A DNA stretch of 53,643 bases from a virus. Under the pieces are notes generated by a model. That model worked only from the letters and a program-made list of their open reading frames with translations, did no database searches and had not been told where the DNA came from. Within the stretch, counting starts at the first letter, position 1; each line of letters begins with the position of its first letter. The stretch spans positions 1-53,643 of IMG/VR virus record IMGVR_UViG_3300049477_000020. One strand, given 5' to 3'. This document shows positions 31,298 to 51,688 of the stretch, in pieces. The position numbers were made by a program, and so were the translations under genes.

Positions 31298-32869
31298 TTA
31301 GACCGTTGCGCCTTCGCTACCAGATCCGAGCGTGTCGTCCTGGAAGTCGAGGAGTCCAGTCTGCAAGTCGATCTGGAACTGGACAGTGATGTAGTTCAAC
31401 GGCACGGCTGGCTTGTACGAGAACTTGCACTCGATGACCGTCGGGTCGCCTCCCGGCAGCGACTGCTGACGGACCTGAAGACCATCCCAGGAGACGATGA
31501 CATCGTCCTGAATGGCCTGCTCCAGGATGCCCACGAGAGAGCCCTTGACGCGGCTCGGCATCTCCTCGTCGATGGGCTCACCGATGAGGCCTGAGTTGTC
31601 CATGCCGAACTGGACCGACTGGTAGAGCGTGTCCGCGATGCGGACCAGGCTGATCTCACGGGTGTCAATCGAGGACATGTCGGTGGTGACGCCGTGTCGA
31701 ACGCTGAGGCGCTGGAGGCGGTCAGTCTCGACTACCGTGACTCCAGACCCAGACAGGGTGTCCTTGAACAACTTGGTCATGGCCTGGAAGATCACCGAGG
31801 GCAGCGACACGAAGGACGAGACGATGGAGCGCGTCAGGCCTCGCTCCACAGACTGTCCAGCCAGAATCCCCGTCAGGGCCGCAGCGAGGTAGTATCCGCT
31901 GGCCTCGATGGTCTCGTTCGCCGTGGAGTTGTAGAGGTTGATCTTGGGTGGGTACACCAGGACGATCCGCTTGCTGGCTGCGTTGACCGCCAGGGTGTCG
32001 AACCCGCCTGTGGTCTGGTCATAGGCCGCGTCGAGACCAATGAAGGCGATGCGCCCAAAGCCATCAGCAGTGGCCGCGTTGACGTGGGACAGCACATCGG
32101 TGATGAGGGCTCCGACTGCGGTGGCATCGTTGGTGTCAGAGGTGGAGTCTCCGCCGCCGTCATCCGTGGTGTAGCCGTGCACGAACAGCGGGACGATCAT
32201 GCCAGCCCGGTAGTCGGTGACCACCTTGGCGTAGGCAGCGATCAACTGATCCTTGTAGTCGCCATCGGCAGGGTCGGTGGGGAGCACCATGAGCCGTCCG
32301 GCGCCATTCTCGAAGGCCACCTTGGCCGCGAGCGAGATGGGGGAGTTGACGGCTGAGGAGGTGGAGACGAAGGGCTCGCCGTAGACGTTGGCGATGCCGT
32401 CGAACTCTTCGTACACCAGCGGTGTGTAGTAGGCCGAGTCGGCGTAGTTGTAGGAGACCGTGAAGGTGCCCCCGTCAACCACACCTCCAGGGGAGGCGAC
32501 AGCGACGTTGGTCTGGTCAACGTCGTCAGCAAGACGGGTGATGAAGACCTGAGCGGTGGCACCGGTGCCTGAGACAGAGAACTGGTAGTCGTCCCCGCGT
32601 ACGAGGAGGGTGCCAGCGGCATCGCGCACCACTGGCTCTGCGATGGCTGGGGGGCCTACGACCGGGTCCTTGAAGGCACCGAGATGTCCGAATGGGACGG
32701 CAGAAGCAGGCGTCGAATAGGCGAGGAGTACCTCGGTGACCTGCTGGTAGCCGCGACCTGGGCCGATGAGCACCGCGAGGCTACCGACCTGCTGTGCCGA
32801 GGTGACCAGCGGACGGCTGGTGTCCTCGACATAGACACCCGGTGCCTGGTACTGCGTGAAATCAACCAC
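31298..32869 (-). CDS. Tail sheath protein
   Basis: A 523-residue contractile sheath subunit. The N-terminal arm FTQYQAPGVYVEDTS and the C-terminal KFSYKPAVPLNYITVQFQID are the conserved inter-subunit handshake segments of phage sheaths, and IFQAMTKLFKDTLSGSGVTVVETD matches the conserved core. This makes the phage a myovirus. GTG start with GGGGAG ribosome site. It follows copy E of the repeated element (28 nt), consistent with high expression of an abundant protein. Confidence 0.92.
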   Translation of the reverse strand: MVDFTQYQAPGVYVEDTSRPLVTSAQQVGSLAVLIGPGRGYQQVTEVLLAYSTPASAVPFGHLGAFKDPVVGPPAIAEPVVRDAAGTLLVRGDDYQFSVSGTGATAQVFITRLADDVDQTNVAVASPGGVVDGGTFTVSYNYADSAYYTPLVYEEFDGIANVYGEPFVSTSSAVNSPISLAAKVAFENGAGRLMVLPTDPADGDYKDQLIAAYAKVVTDYRAGMIVPLFVHGYTTDDGGGDSTSDTNDATAVGALITDVLSHVNAATADGFGRIAFIGLDAAYDQTTGGFDTLAVNAASKRIVLVYPPKINLYNSTANETIEASGYYLAAALTGILAGQSVERGLTRSIVSSFVSLPSVIFQAMTKLFKDTLSGSGVTVVETDRLQRLSVRHGVTTDMSSIDTREISLVRIADTLYQSVQFGMDNSGLIGEPIDEEMPSRVKGSLVGILEQAIQDDVIVSWDGLQVRQQSLPGGDPTVIECKFSYKPAVPLNYITVQFQIDLQTGLLDFQDDTLGSGSEGATV

Positions 32870-32938: not shown

Positions 32939-33592
32939 CTAATGCCAGTTCGTAGCGCTGTAGTCCTCGCTGGATACTGGCTCTTCGTAGTCATTGGGAG
33001 GGTAGACCGCCTTGGCCTCTGTGAGGATGATCGCAGACAGTGGCACCAGTTGCCCGGTGATGGCGTCTGAGATGAACTCCCCGATGACTTCCATGTTGAG
33101 TGTTCTCTCGTAGATTATCTCGTCAGTACCCCATGGGGTACCTGGGGCAGCAGCGTTCCCTCGGGGCTGGATCCGGTCGAAGTCGAAGTTGGCCGCGATG
33201 AAGTCGTTGTTCTCGACCAGTTGCCGGAAGGGCCGGGTCTCGGTGGATTCCTTGCCGAAGGCGATCACCCGGATCATCTCGTCGAAGAGCCGGTCCCGCT
33301 CCAGGCTGGTCAGTGCCACCACGGTGTAGGAGGCGTACCCAGCGTACTTCCACCGGGTGTAGCGGTTGACGGCCAGGTCGGTGTCTGGATCCGAGTTCTC
33401 GGTATGGTCGATCCCTGCGATCTGGAGAGGTCCAGTGTCCTCGTAGTCCACCCAGATGCCTGGGTAGTTCTGGGGCTCGATGGGGTACTCGATGGAGCAG
33501 TGGATGTTGCGAAAGTCAGGCTCGGGGTAGTCAGCGTCGAAGGTGCCCTTCAGAGACTCGACCAGCATCCCCTTCAGCCTAGTGAGGTACAT
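32939..33592 (-). CDS. Tail terminator/neck protein
   Basis: A 217-residue protein immediately before the sheath gene. LTRLKGMLVESLKGTF, DYEDTGPLQIAGI and SYTVVALTSLERDRLFDEMI have the helix-then-strands pattern of tail terminator proteins, which cap the tube and join it to the neck. Position supports this. ATG overlaps the stop of the fourth MSLLWK gene (ATGA). Confidence 0.55.
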   Translation of the reverse strand: MYLTRLKGMLVESLKGTFDADYPEPDFRNIHCSIEYPIEPQNYPGIWVDYEDTGPLQIAGIDHTENSDPDTDLAVNRYTRWKYAGYASYTVVALTSLERDRLFDEMIRVIAFGKESTETRPFRQLVENNDFIAANFDFDRIQPRGNAAAPGTPWGTDEIIYERTLNMEVIGEFISDAITGQLVPLSAIILTEAKAVYPPNDYEEPVSSEDYSATNWH

Positions 33593-34002
33593 CAGTTCGC
33601 CTCGTCCAGGTTGGTGTGGATGAGAGGCGTCTTGCGGCCCTCCAGGGTGTCAGCGATCAGCCGGTGGTGGCCGTCCAGGATGTGGGTCTTCCCCTTGTGG
33701 GTGAAGATGTGGGGCAGGAACTTCTTGGGCGGGGTCTTCTGACGATAGGAGGCCAGGGTGTCGTCGTCGATGTTCGGCTCCATGGCGTGCAAGTTGGCCT
33801 TGCCGCCGTCGATGACCTGGAACTTGCCCTTGGTGGTCCTCAGTTCCTCAGCCCGGTCCATGGCGTCGAAGTGGTCCTGGTCAAAGTTCGGACACGAGGC
33901 GTAGCCGCAGGGGCTCTCCTGGAAGCCAGCCTTGATGGCCCAGTGGTTCAGGCCGTGCTGGGTGTGGTACTCATGCATCGCGGTCTTCCAAAGGAGGCTC
34001 AC
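33592..34002 (-). CDS. MSLLWK-type ParB-like protein (copy 4)
   Basis: A 136-residue protein with GTG start. It begins MSLLWKTAMHEY, and its core ITFTHKG-like strand then ILDGHHRLIADTLEGRKTPL matches the ParB/sulfiredoxin fold, with the GHHR box that contacts nucleotide in ParB relatives. A CGYASC pair near residues 33-38 is extra. The start overlaps the upstream stop (GTGA). One of four genes with the same first six residues; see findings. Confidence 0.65.
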   Translation of the reverse strand: MSLLWKTAMHEYHTQHGLNHWAIKAGFQESPCGYASCPNFDQDHFDAMDRAEELRTTKGKFQVIDGGKANLHAMEPNIDDDTLASYRQKTPPKKFLPHIFTHKGKTHILDGHHRLIADTLEGRKTPLIHTNLDEAN

Positions 34003-34733
34003 TGTGCCCCAGCCTCCTTCAGTTCGGCCCGGAAGTTCTTGTCAGCCGCGTAGACGCGGATTGGCAGGATGCCATTCCACTGAGCGGTCAAAGTGAGTGC
34101 GTTGTTCAGGAACAGCCTAGGCGAGATCCCTGGGTGTCTCCAGCGCACCCCAGAGTTGCCTGGTCGGATTGCGCCCGCGACCTTGCCTGCGGTGGTGAAG
34201 GGACTCCCAGCCTCACGGTTGCCTATGCGCCCCGGAGCACCTGGGTAGGAGGCTGGCTTGTCCTCGTAGGTGACCACCCCGGTCTTCTTGTCCACCTTCT
34301 TCTTCTGGATGCGAGCCCCCATCTGGGCGGCCTTACGGAAGATCAGCACCTGGGTCTTGCCGGACTGGGTGGTCCTGACCTTGGCCTTGGGGTTCTTGGC
34401 TCGCTCGGCACCGGTGGGGTCGTCGATCCACATGGGGATGGTCTTGCCCGCCAGCCCCTTCATGGTGAAGGGCCGGATGCCATGGTCCTGGAACCAGACG
34501 TAGGAGTCGGGGAAGTAGATCCCGAAGAAGCCCTTGCCGTAGACCGGCTGGAGCCTGCGGGCCGAGTCGCCGGTGGCCTTGGGCATCTTGCGCCGGGCCT
34601 CGCGGACAGCCTGGTTGGCCAGCGTCCTGGCGCGTCCAGGGTTGAGGCCCTTGACCACCATCACCATGCGGTCGGGGTTCTGGGAGAGGCGCATCTCCGG
34701 CGTTTCAAGAAGCATCGCTGTCGCCCCTGCCAT
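33999..34733 (-). CDS. Head-tail connector/neck protein (HK97 gp10-like)
   Basis: A 244-residue basic protein. NQAVREARRKMPKATGDSAR, LQPVYGKGFFGIYFPDSYVW then FQDHGIRPFTMKGL resemble HK97 gp10-like neck/tail-completion proteins. It overlaps the preceding gene by about 29 nt if the first ATG is used; an ATG at residue 7 (MLLETPEMRL, 34715) reduces this. Located between two MSLLWK genes. Confidence 0.6.
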   Translation of the reverse strand: MAGATAMLLETPEMRLSQNPDRMVMVVKGLNPGRARTLANQAVREARRKMPKATGDSARRLQPVYGKGFFGIYFPDSYVWFQDHGIRPFTMKGLAGKTIPMWIDDPTGAERAKNPKAKVRTTQSGKTQVLIFRKAAQMGARIQKKKVDKKTGVVTYEDKPASYPGAPGRIGNREAGSPFTTAGKVAGAIRPGNSGVRWRHPGISPRLFLNNALTLTAQWNGILPIRVYAADKNFRAELKEAGAQ

Positions 34734-35085
34734 CCCAAACCAGCACCTTGACTTTGCGGTCGCCCCACCCGAGTCGGTGCATCGCCTCGATGCGGTGATT
34801 ACCGTTCATCACGAAGGATGAGTGGGGCTCGTGCACCACATGGATGTGGGTGATGTGGTCGGGCTGAAAGTGGCCTGCTGGATTGCCGTAGTGCTTCTCG
34901 GGACGGTACCCACGGTTGGTGAGAGACCCCATCAGGTCCCGGACGTTCCGCTCCGTGTTGAGGTGATCCTTGCCTCCGTCCATGTCGGAGCCCCTCACCT
35001 CAGAGATCGCGTGTAGGTCGTTGACGCTCATGCGGTCGAAGTGTTTGTCGTACCTGGACGTTGCGGTCTTCCAGAGGAGGCTCAT
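34705..35085 (-). CDS. MSLLWK-type ParB-like protein (copy 3)
   Basis: A 126-residue protein, MSLLWKTATSRYDKHFDRMS..., with the box MNGNHRIEAMHRLGWGDRKV (ParB-like GxHR variant GNHR) and a preceding HITHIHVVHEPHSS strand. Start overlaps the upstream stop as ATGA; the frame is open further upstream but would only shadow copy 2. Related to copies 1, 2 and 4. Confidence 0.65.
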   Translation of the reverse strand: MSLLWKTATSRYDKHFDRMSVNDLHAISEVRGSDMDGGKDHLNTERNVRDLMGSLTNRGYRPEKHYGNPAGHFQPDHITHIHVVHEPHSSFVMNGNHRIEAMHRLGWGDRKVKVLVWDGRGDSDAS

Positions 35086-35600
35086 GGCTTCAACCCCTCG
35101 AAGTGGTGGGGGTGGATCGCCGGGGGGATGTAGCGCTCGCCCATGCCGCCCTTGAAGTGGGTGGTCATGCTCAGCGGGGCGCCTGTGCCCTCGGACTTGT
35201 TGTCCTCCAGGTCGGCTCGGCCATAGACCCTCACGGGGACGTGACTGAGACCCATCTCTGACGCAGCGCGGAGCCGGTGGTTCCCTTCCCCGAGGCTGCC
35301 CCACTGGTTCTTGTGGTCGTAGTCCAGCATCAGCGGAGTCTTGATCCCCGAGCCGTTGCGGATGTCGTCCTTGATGGACTCGATGCGACGGCGCTCAGCG
35401 TCATGGGCGAGCCCCTCGCCACCGTAGGTCTTCTCCCAGGTGCCGTCGTGCTCGCGGTACTTCTCCAGGGCCTTGACGGGCACCATGCCGACCACCGAGC
35501 GGCTGTCGTCGCCTTCTAGGTGGCCGATGCCACCGGACATGTAGTGCTCGACCGAGTCGGGGACCTCGGGGGTCGAGGCGACCTTCCAGAGGAGGCTCAT
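35082..35600 (-). CDS. MSLLWK-type ParB-like protein (copy 2)
   Basis: A 172-residue protein, MSLLWKVASTPEVPDSVEHY..., with ALEKYREHDGTWEKTYG, IESIKDDIRNGSGIKTPLML and LGEGNHRLRAASEMGLSHVP: the order strand, helix, GxNHR box, helix of the ParB/Srx fold. ATGA overlaps at both ends link it to its neighbours. Confidence 0.7.
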   Translation of the reverse strand: MSLLWKVASTPEVPDSVEHYMSGGIGHLEGDDSRSVVGMVPVKALEKYREHDGTWEKTYGGEGLAHDAERRRIESIKDDIRNGSGIKTPLMLDYDHKNQWGSLGEGNHRLRAASEMGLSHVPVRVYGRADLEDNKSEGTGAPLSMTTHFKGGMGERYIPPAIHPHHFEGLKP

Positions 35601-36349
35601 CAGTCGTCCCTAGGCGGGAAGCCGTGCTTGTCGGCGTCGTAGTGCCAACCCTCGATGTGCTTGTCCCCGCGCTGGAGAGCAGCAGCGACCCGGTGGTGTC
35701 CCTCTGTGACGTGCAGGCGCCCCTGGTGGGTGACGAACATCGGGTGGGAGTCCCCGAGATAGCCCATGGAGTTCTGGAGCGGCTTCAGGTGGCCTGGCGT
35801 CTTCTGACGCTGCCAGGACTCGTCCTCGGGGTTGTCGAGGTAGCGGTTGATGTGCGTCTGGCCGACGTGGCTCTGGGTCGCGTAGACAGGCCCCTGGAGG
35901 TTGACCTTGCCGAGGCTGCCCTTGTTCTGCCAGGTCTTGCTCTCAGAGCCGTGCTCTCCCACGAACTCGTGGAGGTCGGGGTCACGGTGGTCGGGGGTGG
36001 ACTCAGCCTTCTTGGCCTCCATGGCATCACCGTAGGCCTTGTCGTGGCGCTCGTAGAAGGAGTCGGGGAGGTCACCGTACTTGTCCGCAGCAGCGTGTGC
36101 CTTCTCCTCCTCATTGGGTTCAGGCCGCGTGGCTTCGTGGAGGTCCTCATCGAACTCGTAGTGATCTTCCCCAGGCGGACGCGAGCCGACCCCTGCGTCG
36201 CGCATCTCCTGTTCGTAGTCCTCGGAGTGTCCGACGTATCCAGCGAACCCAGCCTGCTTGACCGGCTTGGCCTGGGCGTCCTGAGCACTCATGCCGGTGT
36301 CGCCACCGAAGTCGTGCCAGGCCATCGCCTGCTTCCAGAGGAGGCTCAT
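35600..36349 (-). CDS. MSLLWK-type ParB-like protein (copy 1, longest)
   Basis: A 249-residue protein starting MSLLWKQAMAWHDFGG. A long acidic, helical insert (about residues 40-120, rich in Glu/Asp/His) precedes the C-terminal ParB-like core: GYLGDSHPMFVTHQGRLHV, then TEGHHRVAAALQRGDKHIEG. The start is set at this ATG, which overlaps the upstream stop (ATGA); in-frame sequence further upstream only shadows the connector gene. Confidence 0.7.
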   Translation of the reverse strand: MSLLWKQAMAWHDFGGDTGMSAQDAQAKPVKQAGFAGYVGHSEDYEQEMRDAGVGSRPPGEDHYEFDEDLHEATRPEPNEEEKAHAAADKYGDLPDSFYERHDKAYGDAMEAKKAESTPDHRDPDLHEFVGEHGSESKTWQNKGSLGKVNLQGPVYATQSHVGQTHINRYLDNPEDESWQRQKTPGHLKPLQNSMGYLGDSHPMFVTHQGRLHVTEGHHRVAAALQRGDKHIEGWHYDADKHGFPPRDD

Positions 36350-37071
36350 CAGTCGTCGTCCGCAGGGATCAGTGCTTCCTTGATCTCCTCGTAGGCCGAG
36401 AAGTTGGTCGGCACGCGCTCGATCTCTTCGAGGATCACAGCGAGGCTCGACTCCGACGGAGGGATCAGGTAGGAGACGGTGCCCCTGTCTTCGAGCCCAG
36501 CCCGAGCGAGGTTGTAGTGGATCGAGTGAGTGGTCTGGAGTGGGGTCTCGAAGCCCGTGCGCAGCGTGGTGCGCGTGGGGGTACGAAGGTAGAAGCGGTC
36601 CCCGTTGGACCGGAACATGTAGTCGCCGGAGCGGAGCCGGAAGTCCGAGACGGTCTCCACGTCCAGTGACATCGAGTGGGTCACACCGCGAGCCTGGTTG
36701 GCGTCGTCCTTGTCGGAGTCGGTCAGGATGGCCGGGCGGATGATGCGGGCCTTGTAGCCGCCCTCGAAGGTGGTGCCAAAGCAGGTGGGGCACTTGTTCT
36801 GGGTCGGCTGGTTGTAGGCCGCTGTGACCCGGTCGTTGACGGTGGTGCCGTTCCCGTAGCACTCGGTGCAGCGGGTGATCCGGCCCTCTTCGAGGTCCTG
36901 GATGTGCCACATGAGGATGAACATGACGTACTCGCCGTACCAGTAGATGGCCTGGTTCTGGCGCAGCCGCTCGTTCTCGATGGCGAAGTCCTGGCGCTCC
37001 CGGACATAGAGACGCCGGTCAGGCAGTACGGGAGCCGGGCTCGGCACCGGTGCGGGGATCGGCAGAGGCAT
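36349..37071 (-). CDS. Neck/head-tail connector protein with zinc-ribbon motif
   Basis: A 240-residue protein with a Pro-rich N-terminus. Residues about 67-105 contain CTECYGNG and CPTCFGTT, a CxxCxGxG pair as in zinc ribbons or DnaJ-like fingers. The following part (KARIIRPAILTDSD, SDFRLRSGDYMFRSNGDRFY) is beta-rich. Proteins with this layout sit at the start of neck modules in myoviruses, hence the tentative connector call. Confidence 0.5.
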   Translation of the reverse strand: MPLPIPAPVPSPAPVLPDRRLYVRERQDFAIENERLRQNQAIYWYGEYVMFILMWHIQDLEEGRITRCTECYGNGTTVNDRVTAAYNQPTQNKCPTCFGTTFEGGYKARIIRPAILTDSDKDDANQARGVTHSMSLDVETVSDFRLRSGDYMFRSNGDRFYLRTPTRTTLRTGFETPLQTTHSIHYNLARAGLEDRGTVSYLIPPSESSLAVILEEIERVPTNFSAYEEIKEALIPADDD

Positions 37072-37102: not shown

Positions 37103-38263
37103 TCACCCCTTCAGGGGCGTCGCACCTGCTGCGACAGGAGGCCGGTAGACCGGGGCGTTCCAGCCGTCCGAGCCATCCCGCAAGGTACGGATCCTCCAGA
37201 GCCACTCAGCGAACTGGGGAGCCACTGCTTCGAGGGAGAACCGCTCCAGGGTGCGCTCACGGAGTTCGGGGCCTCGGAGGCCCAACTCCTGGATCATGCC
37301 GATCTGCTGAGCCGCCTGAGCCGGGGTCCGGTAGCGGAAGCCGTCCTCGAAGGGGGTGATGGTCTCGGTGAAGACCCCGTAGTCGGGAGCGACCACTGGG
37401 ACACCGGACGCCATGGCCTCGACGTGCACGGTGCCGAAGGGTTCGATGTAGAGGGTGGGGGTGATGAGCACGCTGGCGTGCGACATGATCTCAGCCCGCT
37501 TCACTGGGTTGGCCACCCCCTCATAGGCAGCGACGGGGTCGATGACCGTGCCGTCGGTGGCTGTAAGCACCCCGTCCTCGTAGGTCTTCATGCCAGCACC
37601 CATGGCCACCAGGCGCAGCCCTGCTCGCTTGGCGATGTCGGCAGCGACGTGTGGGCCCTTGCGCATGATGAGGCGACCAGCGAAGAGGGCGTACCCCTCG
37701 TCGGAGCCAGTCTTGAACTGCTCGCGCCGGACGAAGTTCGGGATCACCGCGTCGAAGGCTCGACCGTCGTTGACGCCGTAGGCACCGTACCGGTGGTGCA
37801 TCCAGGCGTAGGACTCGAAGCAGGCGAAGGTGCCGTGCGGGGCGATGCCCTCGTAGCCCACGGCGGGCTCGATGATGGCGTGGTCGTTCTTGAAGGTGTC
37901 GGTGACGTTCTGCATCAGGGCGCCCATCCAGATGGCGATGATGTCGCCGGGCTGGATGCGCTTCTTGATCTCGCGGACAGCGCGGTAGAGGAAGACGGCC
38001 CAGTAGTCCTTCTCGGTCGTCCACTCGATGTCGGGGAGGCGGGTACCTACGTCGGCCCCGAAGAACTTGATGCGCTCGTCATTGGAGAGGAGTTCGACGA
38101 CCTCGCAGTTGACGGTGTTGGGACCACCACCCCAGTAGGCCGTGACGGGCTCGTCCAGGAGCCCCATGATCTTCGTCCATCTGGCTGCCTTGGTGGTGAA
38201 GGCGCAGGTGGAGTAGAGGTCTTCGTTCAGGCTGGTGTGCGGGAGACCAACGAGATGAATCAT
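37103..38263 (-). CDS. Family 1/4-type glycosyltransferase
   Basis: A 386-residue glycosyltransferase of the GT-B fold. The C-terminal nucleotide-sugar site shows EPFGTVHVEAMASGVPVVAP (about residues 272-291; E-x7-E pattern), preceded by YALFAGRLIMRKGPHVAADI. The N-terminal half (MIHLVGLPHTSLNEDLYSTC) is the acceptor domain. It lies between virion proteins, so the acceptor may be a fibre, capsid or tail protein (inference). The start MIHLVGLP is chosen; an in-frame ATG at 38311 would overlap the preceding gene. The last codons overlap copy D of the repeated element. Confidence 0.85.
   Translation of the reverse strand: MIHLVGLPHTSLNEDLYSTCAFTTKAARWTKIMGLLDEPVTAYWGGGPNTVNCEVVELLSNDERIKFFGADVGTRLPDIEWTTEKDYWAVFLYRAVREIKKRIQPGDIIAIWMGALMQNVTDTFKNDHAIIEPAVGYEGIAPHGTFACFESYAWMHHRYGAYGVNDGRAFDAVIPNFVRREQFKTGSDEGYALFAGRLIMRKGPHVAADIAKRAGLRLVAMGAGMKTYEDGVLTATDGTVIDPVAAYEGVANPVKRAEIMSHASVLITPTLYIEPFGTVHVEAMASGVPVVAPDYGVFTETITPFEDGFRYRTPAQAAQQIGMIQELGLRGPELRERTLERFSLEAVAPQFAEWLWRIRTLRDGSDGWNAPVYRPPVAAGATPLKG
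37106..37138 (-). promoter_or_regulatory. Repeated intergenic element, copy D
   Basis: CCTGTC-N20-GAAGGGG; the loop is one base shorter and the spacer one longer than in other copies, keeping the box-to-box distance at 20. It overlaps the last codons of the glycosyltransferase gene and lies 34 nt before the connector gene start. Confidence 0.75.
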
Positions 38264-38273
38264 GTTGGCGATG

Positions 38274-39053
38274 CTACCAGGATCCGGCACCCCGAGGCCA
38301 CGTCTGGCCATCCAGAGGCACTACCCCTCCTGCATCAAGCCGGGTGGGGGTTCGGACAAGAAACGTGGGCAGAGAGTCCTTCAACGACAACTGGTGAGCG
38401 AAAGTGATGGTGTTGCTCAACTCGATCCATGGGGTGGCATCTGTGGTGGCCGTCTCATCCTCTGCGAGATCGGTCCCTGCTGTTTGCCCACAACGTAGGG
38501 ACAAGGTCCGAGAAGATGCTGTGACGTTGTGGTAGCGCCAGCCAACTTCGATGACGAGAGCATCACCGGCAGTAGCGTCCACACTGGACATCGCTGATCC
38601 AGATCCCGACCAGCCCGGAGGCAGTTTCCTGTTGGTCAACGCTGTGGCGATCTCGTAGTTATCGGTGCCAGCGCTGCCTGAGATCGCCACCGAGGTGTTC
38701 TGAGAAGAGAAGAGGGTGCCCCTCTCCGTGCCAGTTGGGCTGACTACCCGCAGGTGGAGTTGCAGGCAACCATCAGCATCTGCGGCGCTCTCTAGCGCCA
38801 GGATCTGCCCCTTGACGTTGCCTGTGATCGTCTGGGTGGCTAGCCCTGGCATCACCCACTGCGTATGCAGAGAGTTGCCAGCGACAGAAGCAGTCTCACC
38901 AGCCCCAGACAGCGTGGAGTAGGCGTAAGGAGCCTCGTTGGTATCTGTTGCTCGACGCCTCACCGCTCCACCAGTGGCGCCCCAGTACGCGCCATAGGCT
39001 GGAGCGATGATCGTTCCCGGTGGGCTGTACGGCAAGTAGATGCGAGTTGCCAT
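38274..39053 (-). CDS. Minor virion (tail/fibre-associated) protein
   Basis: A 259-residue beta-rich protein (MATRIYLPYSPPGTII; QWVMPGLATQTITGNVKGQI; GDALVIEVGWRYHN). This is a common actinophage minor tail/virion protein type whose exact location is not known. It lies directly between the preceding virion gene and the glycosyltransferase. Confidence 0.55.
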   Translation of the reverse strand: MATRIYLPYSPPGTIIAPAYGAYWGATGGAVRRRATDTNEAPYAYSTLSGAGETASVAGNSLHTQWVMPGLATQTITGNVKGQILALESAADADGCLQLHLRVVSPTGTERGTLFSSQNTSVAISGSAGTDNYEIATALTNRKLPPGWSGSGSAMSSVDATAGDALVIEVGWRYHNVTASSRTLSLRCGQTAGTDLAEDETATTDATPWIELSNTITFAHQLSLKDSLPTFLVRTPTRLDAGGVVPLDGQTWPRGAGSW

Positions 39054-39970: not shown

Positions 39971-41899
39971 CTACTCCGTCCTGATCCAGCCGAGGATGAC
40001 CTCGACCGTGCTTGTGCTGCCCGAGCGGTTCTCGATGGCGTAGTACACGTCCGTACCTGTCGGGCAGTAGCCATCCACGAGCGGCGACAGGTCGTAGTCT
40101 ACGGCCCCGGTGGCGACGAACTCGAACATGAGCCCATGATCCCCAGTCGGATCTGTGCCGACGGAGCGAGCCGCATCTGCGGTGCGCTTAGCGCTCGTGG
40201 TGTAGAGGCGCACTCGGCAGGCCCGGTCGGTCTCGATGGTGTGGAGGCGGTAGCCCGACGCCATCGCCTTTGTTCCATTCTCGGTCGCGTTCACTGCGAG
40301 TGAACCCGTCGTGATAGTGGACGTGTCACGAGTGAAGTAGGAGGGGCCAGTGGACCCAGTAGGACCGAAGGGGCCAGGCACTCCATCCTCACCATCTGAG
40401 CCATCTAGCCCAGGGACTCCAGAAGGCCCAGTGGCTCCGGTAGCCCCGGTGACTCCTGTGACTCCTGTGACACCGGCGCCCGTGACTCCGATGTCTCCAG
40501 TTGGACCCGTGGGACCTGTGTCGCCAGTCACCCCGGTGATTCCTGTGACCCCAGTCGTCCCTTGTGGTCCCGTCACCCCGGTCACACCGGTGACCCCGCT
40601 GATGCCCGTCGGTCCTGTGGGTCCAGTGTCGCCCGTGACTCCTGTCACGCCGGTGACACCTGTAGGGCCGACTTCTCCCGTGGCTCCTACAGGACCAGTG
40701 GCTCCAATGGGCCCTTGTACCCCGATGTCGCCGTCAAGCCCATCTGCCCCGTCTACCCCAGGAGGCCCAGTCGCTCCGGTCACTCCTGTGACGCCTGTCG
40801 TGCCAGCCCCAGTGACCCCCGTTGCCCCTGTGACGCCAGTGACACCCTTCACGCCAGTGGCTCCGGTGGTACCTGCTCCGGTGGCTCCCGTGACTCCTGT
40901 GACCCCGGTGATGCCTCGGGCACCAGTGCCCCCCGTGCCACCCGTGGCTCCGGCTGCGCCCGACACCCCAGTTGGTCCTGTGGCGCCAGTGACACCAGCA
41001 CCAGTGGCTCCAGTGACACCCGTGATGCCCGTGGCTCCGGTAGGACCGACATCTCCGGTGGCTCCAGTCGGACCTGTGGGGCCGCCTGCGGGGCCAGTTG
41101 CTCCCGTGGTGCCGGGGGCTCCAGGAGGCCCTGTGACGCCCGAAGGGCCGGTTGCACCTACGAGCCCAGTGTCGCCAGTCTGGCCAGCCACACCTATGCC
41201 CATCGGCCCGGACGGGCCAGTAGAGCCGGTGGGGCCAGTAGCGCCTGTCACTCCGACAGGGCCAGAGGTGATGGGGATGCCCGTCGGCCAGGGCTGGCCG
41301 TCCACCTTGGGTCCGTAGAGTGTGGGCGGGTCATCGAGGAGGTAGTAGTCGCCCTCGTTCCCGAGCCCCTGCTGGGGCACAGTCGAGCCGTGGCGCAGGA
41401 GTGTGCCCTGGACTCCCTGGACACCCGTTGGTCCAGTCGGGCCTGTTGGGCCAGAGGCTCCCGAGCCACCCGTGTTGCCGGTGGGGCCAGTCGGACCAGA
41501 GGGCCCCGTGGATCCCGCGACCCCCGAGACACCTGTGGGTCCGGTGGCGCCCTTGGGGCCGATGAGGACCTCGGTGCCAGCATCGAAGAGGGCCTGCTCG
41601 ATCAGGTCGAGCCGCTGGTCGAGTTCAGCGAACATGGGGTAGGTCGGTCCTGAGCCCGCCTTGGCGTAGAGAGTGTCTACGTCGTCGGGGCCGAGGAAGC
41701 GGGGGATGAGCGCGTCAGCGCCGATGGTCAGCGTCGAACTCGGGATGGGGGTCGAGTCGAGTTCCTGGATGTCAGCCAGGATGGTGCCAGCCTCGTCCTC
41801 GTAGACGACGACGGGGTCAGCATCAGGGGTCAGGATGGGGTCGCCTGGGCCTTGGTAGACAAAGGCGATGCGGTCCTCGGGGAAGATGAACCTCGTCAA
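39971..41899 (-). CDS. Collagen-like tail fibre
   Basis: A 642-residue protein with TTG start after GGAGGTGAG. The N-terminal about 115 residues ([30 protein letters not shown]) match the N-terminus of the giant fibre and probably anchor it to the virion. Residues about 120-520 are Gly-X-Y collagen repeats with two Asp-rich breaks ([20 protein letters not shown]). The C-terminal about 115 residues form a globular beta domain (ending [13 protein letters not shown]), probably the receptor-binding tip. It should trimerise as a triple helix. Confidence 0.8.

Positions 41900-44845: not shown

Positions 44846-51688
<6,843 letters not shown>

Follow-up and report, generated by a model that had tools for sequence, protein, structure and literature searches.

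A shared N-terminus on small, diverse proteins of a phage neck operon and its possible role in virion loading

Why would several small genes lodged among the neck genes of a phage begin with the same residues and then continue into unrelated sequence? The question is raised by IMG/VR virus record IMGVR_UViG_3300049477_000020, analysed over its whole length (53,643 nucleotides; 53.6 kb; hereafter the window), in which four minus-strand genes share an N-terminus that we call the tag: P0001 (35600..36349, 249 residues, tag MSLLWKQAMAW), P0002 (35082..35600, 172 residues, MSLLWKVA), P0003 (34705..35085, 126 residues, MSLLWKTA) and P0004 (33592..34002, 136 residues, GTG start, MSLLWKTA). Coordinates and translations bear out the original prediction, made from the DNA alone, that these four genes start with MSLLWK and that their first 18 nucleotides are the same in three copies, the fourth departing from them at two bases. 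The tag codons read ATGAGCCTCCTCTGGAAG in P0001 (36332..36349), P0002 (35583..35600) and P0003 (35068..35085), and GTGAGCCTCCTTTGGAAG in P0004 (33985..34002), where one of the two differences lies in the start codon. A chance origin of the four shared starts is excluded: with up to three mismatches allowed, the tag DNA has four matches in the window versus 0.14 expected, and none of 100 shuffles reached four. Our answer, which draws on sequence and analogy and which we regard as probable though well short of certain, is that MSLLW followed by [KR]xA may act as an N-terminal virion-loading tag that directs exchangeable small effectors into the head.

Protein searches of viral contigs with P0002 and P0003, and of cultured phages with P0001 and P0003, returned no relatives, and the tag itself was therefore taken as the probe, by scanning viral contigs for tag DNA and then reading the open reading frames. 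Most pattern matches were discarded as chance, lying in short or unrelated reading frames; a second scan with another codon pattern added L177, taken from a 155-kb contig, with two tagged genes at the same neck site. Twenty genes starting with MSLLW or MSTLW were found in eight contigs, namely the window (four), L013/G005 (five), L010/G004, G001, G002, G007 and L177 (two each) and G006 (one), and all of them lie between the same neck and tail-terminator genes. G001 is the same phage as G003, and G002 and G007 are close relatives of each other; since the searches used restricted codon patterns, the counts are lower bounds, and gene calls on the uncultivated contigs were made in this analysis. 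Residues 2 to 5 of the tag are serine (20/20), leucine (19/20, with one threonine), leucine (20/20) and tryptophan (20/20), so that the fixed part is MSLLW, mostly followed by [KR]xA directly or one residue later. A search for further MSLLWK-type proteins, proposed earlier, found no SLLW outside tagged-gene starts among the window's predicted proteins, and across the predicted proteins of all eight contigs every SLLW or STLW is the N-terminus of a tagged gene. The exact tag strings were absent from the phage papers searched.

The codons for the tag vary between phages (AGC, AGT and TCC for serine; CTC, CTG, CTA and CTT for leucine) while S-L-W is fixed, which argues that the tag is under selection as a peptide. 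Homologous pairs of tagged proteins keep three to four of four tag residues and, one close pair excepted, only 0–7 of the 32 ungapped positions just behind. The CCTCCT core in the tag codons, for which an anti-Shine–Dalgarno role had been considered, is lost in relatives with CTG leucine codons that retain the peptide, and this idea was dropped.

Behind the tag stand one, two or three ParB/sulfiredoxin (Srx) domains, ADP-ribosyltransferases of the Arr type and of other types or, in one case, a 157-residue body of no recognised family. In the window, each body holds a core with G(H/N)HR, as had been noted: GHHR in the C-terminal ParB/Srx domain of P0001 (approximately residues 145–242) and in the P0004 core, and GNHR in the ParB/Srx domain of P0002 and the ParB/Srx-like P0003. 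Pfam gave only sub-threshold ParB and VapB-like matches to the four bodies, so profile and fold searches were needed. A profile of P0002, P0003 and their relatives matches sulfiredoxin 6ky4 (E 1.4e-5), ParB 6t1f (E 7e-5), SbnI and serine kinase, and that of the P0001/P0004 group has ParB 4umk as its best match (E 0.05). Structures were modelled for P0001 and P0002 with AlphaFold2. The P0002 model has 16 matches in the PDB at E<0.001, all of them ParB, Srx, Noc or PadC; the P0001 domain is modelled at a predicted local distance difference test score (pLDDT) of about 90 for most strands, and its best matches are again Srx and ParB, at a weaker E of 0.02–0.08. The ParB/Srx fold of the original prediction is thus supported by profile matches and structure prediction, clearly for P0002 and more weakly for P0001, and the window bodies appear to belong to the ParB/sulfiredoxin superfamily. 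They share its fold and G(H/N)HR motif, but no partition context was seen around the window genes. Among the tagged relatives, Arr-type domains score 26.5, 31.8 and 33.5 bits against PF12120 (Arr-ms ADP-ribosyltransferase; curated cut-off 25), and G005 carries two further tagged proteins of 97 and 165 residues that are ADP-ribosyltransferase-like by motif. In some of these relatives a ParB-like domain and an Arr domain occur in one protein, and in others two to three ParB-like domains stand in tandem; P0003 can be aligned to the N-terminal portion of the tagged Arr proteins, and a homologue of P0004 with an MSLLW tag was found at L049 1828-1367.

ParB-like and ADP-ribosyltransferase modules adjoining structural genes are predicted injected effectors in the account of phage polyvalent proteins by Iyer et al. 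(2017; PMC5512222). Both the module types and the location beside virion genes recur here, the latter as neck synteny, and a homologue of P0002 is an internal module of a 1494-residue multidomain protein on contig G003, which suggests that part of the tagged set, at least, consists of polyvalent modules in unfused form. Polyvalent proteins carry several disparate domains per polypeptide, whereas P0001–P0004 have one recognised domain apiece and are encoded by small genes of their own that all open with the tag; the searched passages of that paper make no mention of a shared N-terminal tag.

Other lineages carry different shared N-termini on the same kinds of body. Mycobacterium phage I3 has a ParB-like nuclease domain protein, gp129, at the same neck position as the window genes, but its N-terminus is of the ARxQ..PW type. 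The full motif [TS]AR[ED]Q..ExLxPW, or a degenerate form of it, lies near the N-terminus of different late proteins, namely of I3 gp110, gp111 and gp129 and of Skog gp166 and gp173, with a partial version in Skog gp165, and has no other occurrence in the sequences scanned. When shared N-termini were sought without a preset motif, the gp110/gp111 pair came first in I3 and gp166/gp173 came second in Skog; this motif-free search also brought up M[TN]HLRQAW, which in G009 stands on an Arr homologue and on the gene next to it. In L137, a homologue of P0002 (41% identity over 175 positions) carries LNQKQF in place of MSLLWK. Across L137 and 49 loci related to it, LSxxQ[FL] opens 128 genes, which fall into five unrelated body clusters (two ADP-ribosyltransferase-like, one ParB-like, one GNAT-like and one of no recognised family); the motif is N-terminal in all 128 and has no other occurrence in the reading frames scanned across the 50 loci, although many of these contigs are near-identical and 128 is not a count of independent events. 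A tblastn search of cultured phages with the tagged Arr proteins and the L137 proteins gave no match. The LSxxQF-tagged sets in L282 and L287 belong to a different phage group (L137 has 40% GC) and have a probable CHAP-type amidase gene a few genes downstream. That the same body has different tags in different lineages is, in our view, the most persuasive reason to treat the N-terminus as a module of its own, presumably read by phage-specific machinery.

The original prediction of a targeting signal is the best-supported reading because the same N-terminus stands on unrelated bodies (ParB, ADP-ribosyltransferase and unassigned) and other lineages tag homologous bodies differently. Overlapping genes in the neck operon would encode small effectors, ParB/Srx proteins here and ADP-ribosyltransferases in relatives, as unfused equivalents of polyvalent-protein modules; the tag would direct them into the assembling head, where the head-maturation protease may remove it after [KR]xA, and the effectors would enter the next host together with the phage DNA. 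New effectors could acquire the tag when recombination copies its start DNA. The closest working parallel, for which we claim no homology, is the capsid-targeting sequence of T4, since that sequence is all that the varied T-even internal proteins, which make up a defence set, have in common (PMC3012670). In both cases one short N-terminal peptide, possibly cleaved at maturation, stands on diverse proteins, many of them counter-defence proteins in the T4 case and 20 genes with at least three kinds of body here. Unlike T4, the phages considered here have several lineage-specific tags, and they also depart from T4 in the sequence of the tag, in the candidate motif for cleavage and in where the genes lie.

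The cleavage step is suggested by [KR]xA, which stands behind the tag in 16 of the 20 tagged genes versus 2% of other genes. In I3 (30016-51169; L100/L101), all 11 occurrences of [KR]TA[GA] among the annotated plus-strand proteins examined fall in the head-gene cluster; in Skog the counts are seven in the head-gene cluster versus six elsewhere. Of five genomes tested, I3 and Skog show strong enrichment of [KR]TA and G007 and G001 a marginal one, while that in G005 is not significant. [KR]TA[GA] is thus a candidate head-protease site, and tag removal after [KR]xA is a lead, not proof. A protease-like stretch, recognised by motif only, is fused to large multidomain proteins in G005, G007, G001, G006 and G009. 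In giant phage SPN3US, the prohead protease cuts N-terminal propeptides off head proteins, and two of these propeptides are as short as 20 and 24 residues (PMC10052503); those proteins and their cleavage motif are different, and the MSLLW tag is only about eight residues long, with a removal that is conjectural.

Several observations weigh against virion loading. The literature search gave no virion proteomics for these phages, with nothing usable for E3, Bxz1 or Myrna, and the tag is modelled by AlphaFold2 as a helix of low confidence only. Four of the 20 genes have no [KR]xA at the tag (MSLLWARVG, MSLLWVRSL, MSTLWAQA and MSLLWVHA), the cleavage motif was picked after inspecting the tags, the [KR]TA trend is weak in the window's own clade (p 0.05–0.26), and one I3 [KR]TAG belongs to gp95, a small protein with no evident cleavage. 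The motif-free search also lists tail-fibre-like genes, so a shared N-terminus alone is no proof of cargo. Finally, all MSLLW genes lie at the neck and none beside capsid genes, which would equally suit docking to the neck or portal.

The last point requires a closer look at the locus. Core genes of the window are approximately 30% identical to their counterparts in actinobacterial myoviruses such as Finch, E3, Skog, Stormageddon, Myrna and I3, and because such related phages span 135–165 kb, the record is probably a fragment of a larger genome. All on the minus strand, a core neck gene (36349..37071; phrog_2806, homologue of I3 gp128) flanks P0001–P0003, a second core neck gene (33999..34733; phrog_2819, at the position of I3 gp130) separates these from P0004, and a probable tail terminator gene (32939..33592; phrog_2748, homologue of I3 gp131) closes the interval, followed by the tail sheath gene (31298..32869). 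In I3, the ParB-like gp129 lies between the homologues of the phrog_2806 and phrog_2819 genes, and Skog gp173, annotated with a ParB C-terminal domain, occupies the neighbouring slot. No ParB-like or tagged gene was found at the neck site in Finch, Myrna, E3, Stormageddon or contigs G009 and G010; the interval is an accessory site inside the neck operon. In G004, G005 and G006 this site also holds small untagged genes that resemble membrane proteins, as judged by eye (L047 6327-6581; L049 984-1370; L058 10586-11011). A glycosyltransferase gene (phrog_3408; 37103-38311 of the window) lies within the structural operon next to the neck genes.

Could the tag instead dock its proteins to the neck or portal, as minor head–tail connector components, a plug or a gate, and not as cargo of the head lumen? 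The location of all 20 MSLLW genes between neck and tail-terminator genes, with I3 gp129 and Skog gp173 at equivalent or adjacent sites, would suit this, as would the shared N-termini on variable bodies among tail-fibre-like genes in these genomes, a class in which anchoring through the N-terminus is an established principle. We nevertheless consider docking unlikely, since the analogous I3/Skog tag also stands on genes away from the neck (I3 53.9–57.2 kb; Skog 87.9–91 kb), and the six genomes that have no such gene at the site indicate that these proteins are dispensable for neck assembly.

Somewhat less probable still is a role of the tag in the infected cell, where it would be a short amphipathic peptide that takes each effector, once synthesised or injected, to a single host protein or to the membrane of the host. 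The tag combines hydrophobic character with a basic residue, and the membrane-protein-like genes of the same interval would be in keeping with such a destination. However, the tags differ by lineage while the effector families are shared, which fits phage-specific virion recognition better, although this is not decisive because the hosts differ too.

How the tag spreads is a separate matter, on which the recombination joint of the original prediction retains a part. Tagged gene starts of the same genome are almost identical at the DNA level, with runs of 19–22 nucleotides shared between the G005 copies, so the tag also spreads by copying. A 26-nucleotide direct repeat, consisting of GACGACTG and the tag codons, occurs at the starts of P0001 (36332..36357) and P0002 (35583..35608); its copies bracket P0001, and eight nucleotides of each precede the start. 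AGC makes up about one-fifth of the serine codons in the window and G005 yet is used in 9/9 of their tags, partly because ATGA overlaps require a second codon beginning with AG in some copies. The tag thus appears to be copied as DNA and maintained as a peptide. The stronger claim, that the peptide has no function and the shared starts are a recombination joint plus a signal for translational coupling (TGATG/ATGA overlap), both duplicated along with the genes, would account for these repeats and the AGC preference but is already disfavoured and very improbable, because S-L-W is retained through different codons between phages, TCC-serine starts exist without overlap of the upstream gene, and other lineages keep other peptides.

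Virion loading through such tags could extend beyond this clade. On a broader proposal, in which our confidence is evenly balanced, many phages would load a fast-changing set of solo effectors into virions via lineage-specific N-terminal address peptides that evolved more than once (MSLLW-KxA, ARxQ..LxPW, LSxxQF and HLRQAW), with recombination passing a tag between effectors and the tag being swapped on a change of lineage, so that the tag would reveal which effectors uncultivated phages inject. A simple sequence rule, a shared N-terminus in the structural region followed by its bodies, would then point to proteins that phages probably carry into cells, and would expose counter-defence and host-takeover effectors in unannotated uncultivated phages. 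In actinobacterial myoviruses, a tag of about eight residues could also be put to use as a handle for encapsidation, and the tagged sets bear on the interconversion of multidomain polyvalent proteins and single-effector sets.

Two further observations concern large genes. In G009, a 3116-residue open reading frame (98031-107381; L069/L070) has a protease-like N-terminus and a string of ParB-like, ADP-ribosyltransferase-like, GNAT-like and Nudix-like modules, which are separated by a repeated linker, [KR][TQ]AGLxAF(V/I)AA, that may represent processing sites. In the window, two collagen-like, tail-fibre-like genes (39971-41899 and 44846-51688, the second encoding 2280 residues) have a common N-terminus of their own, MTR(F/Y)xFPxDR..F.

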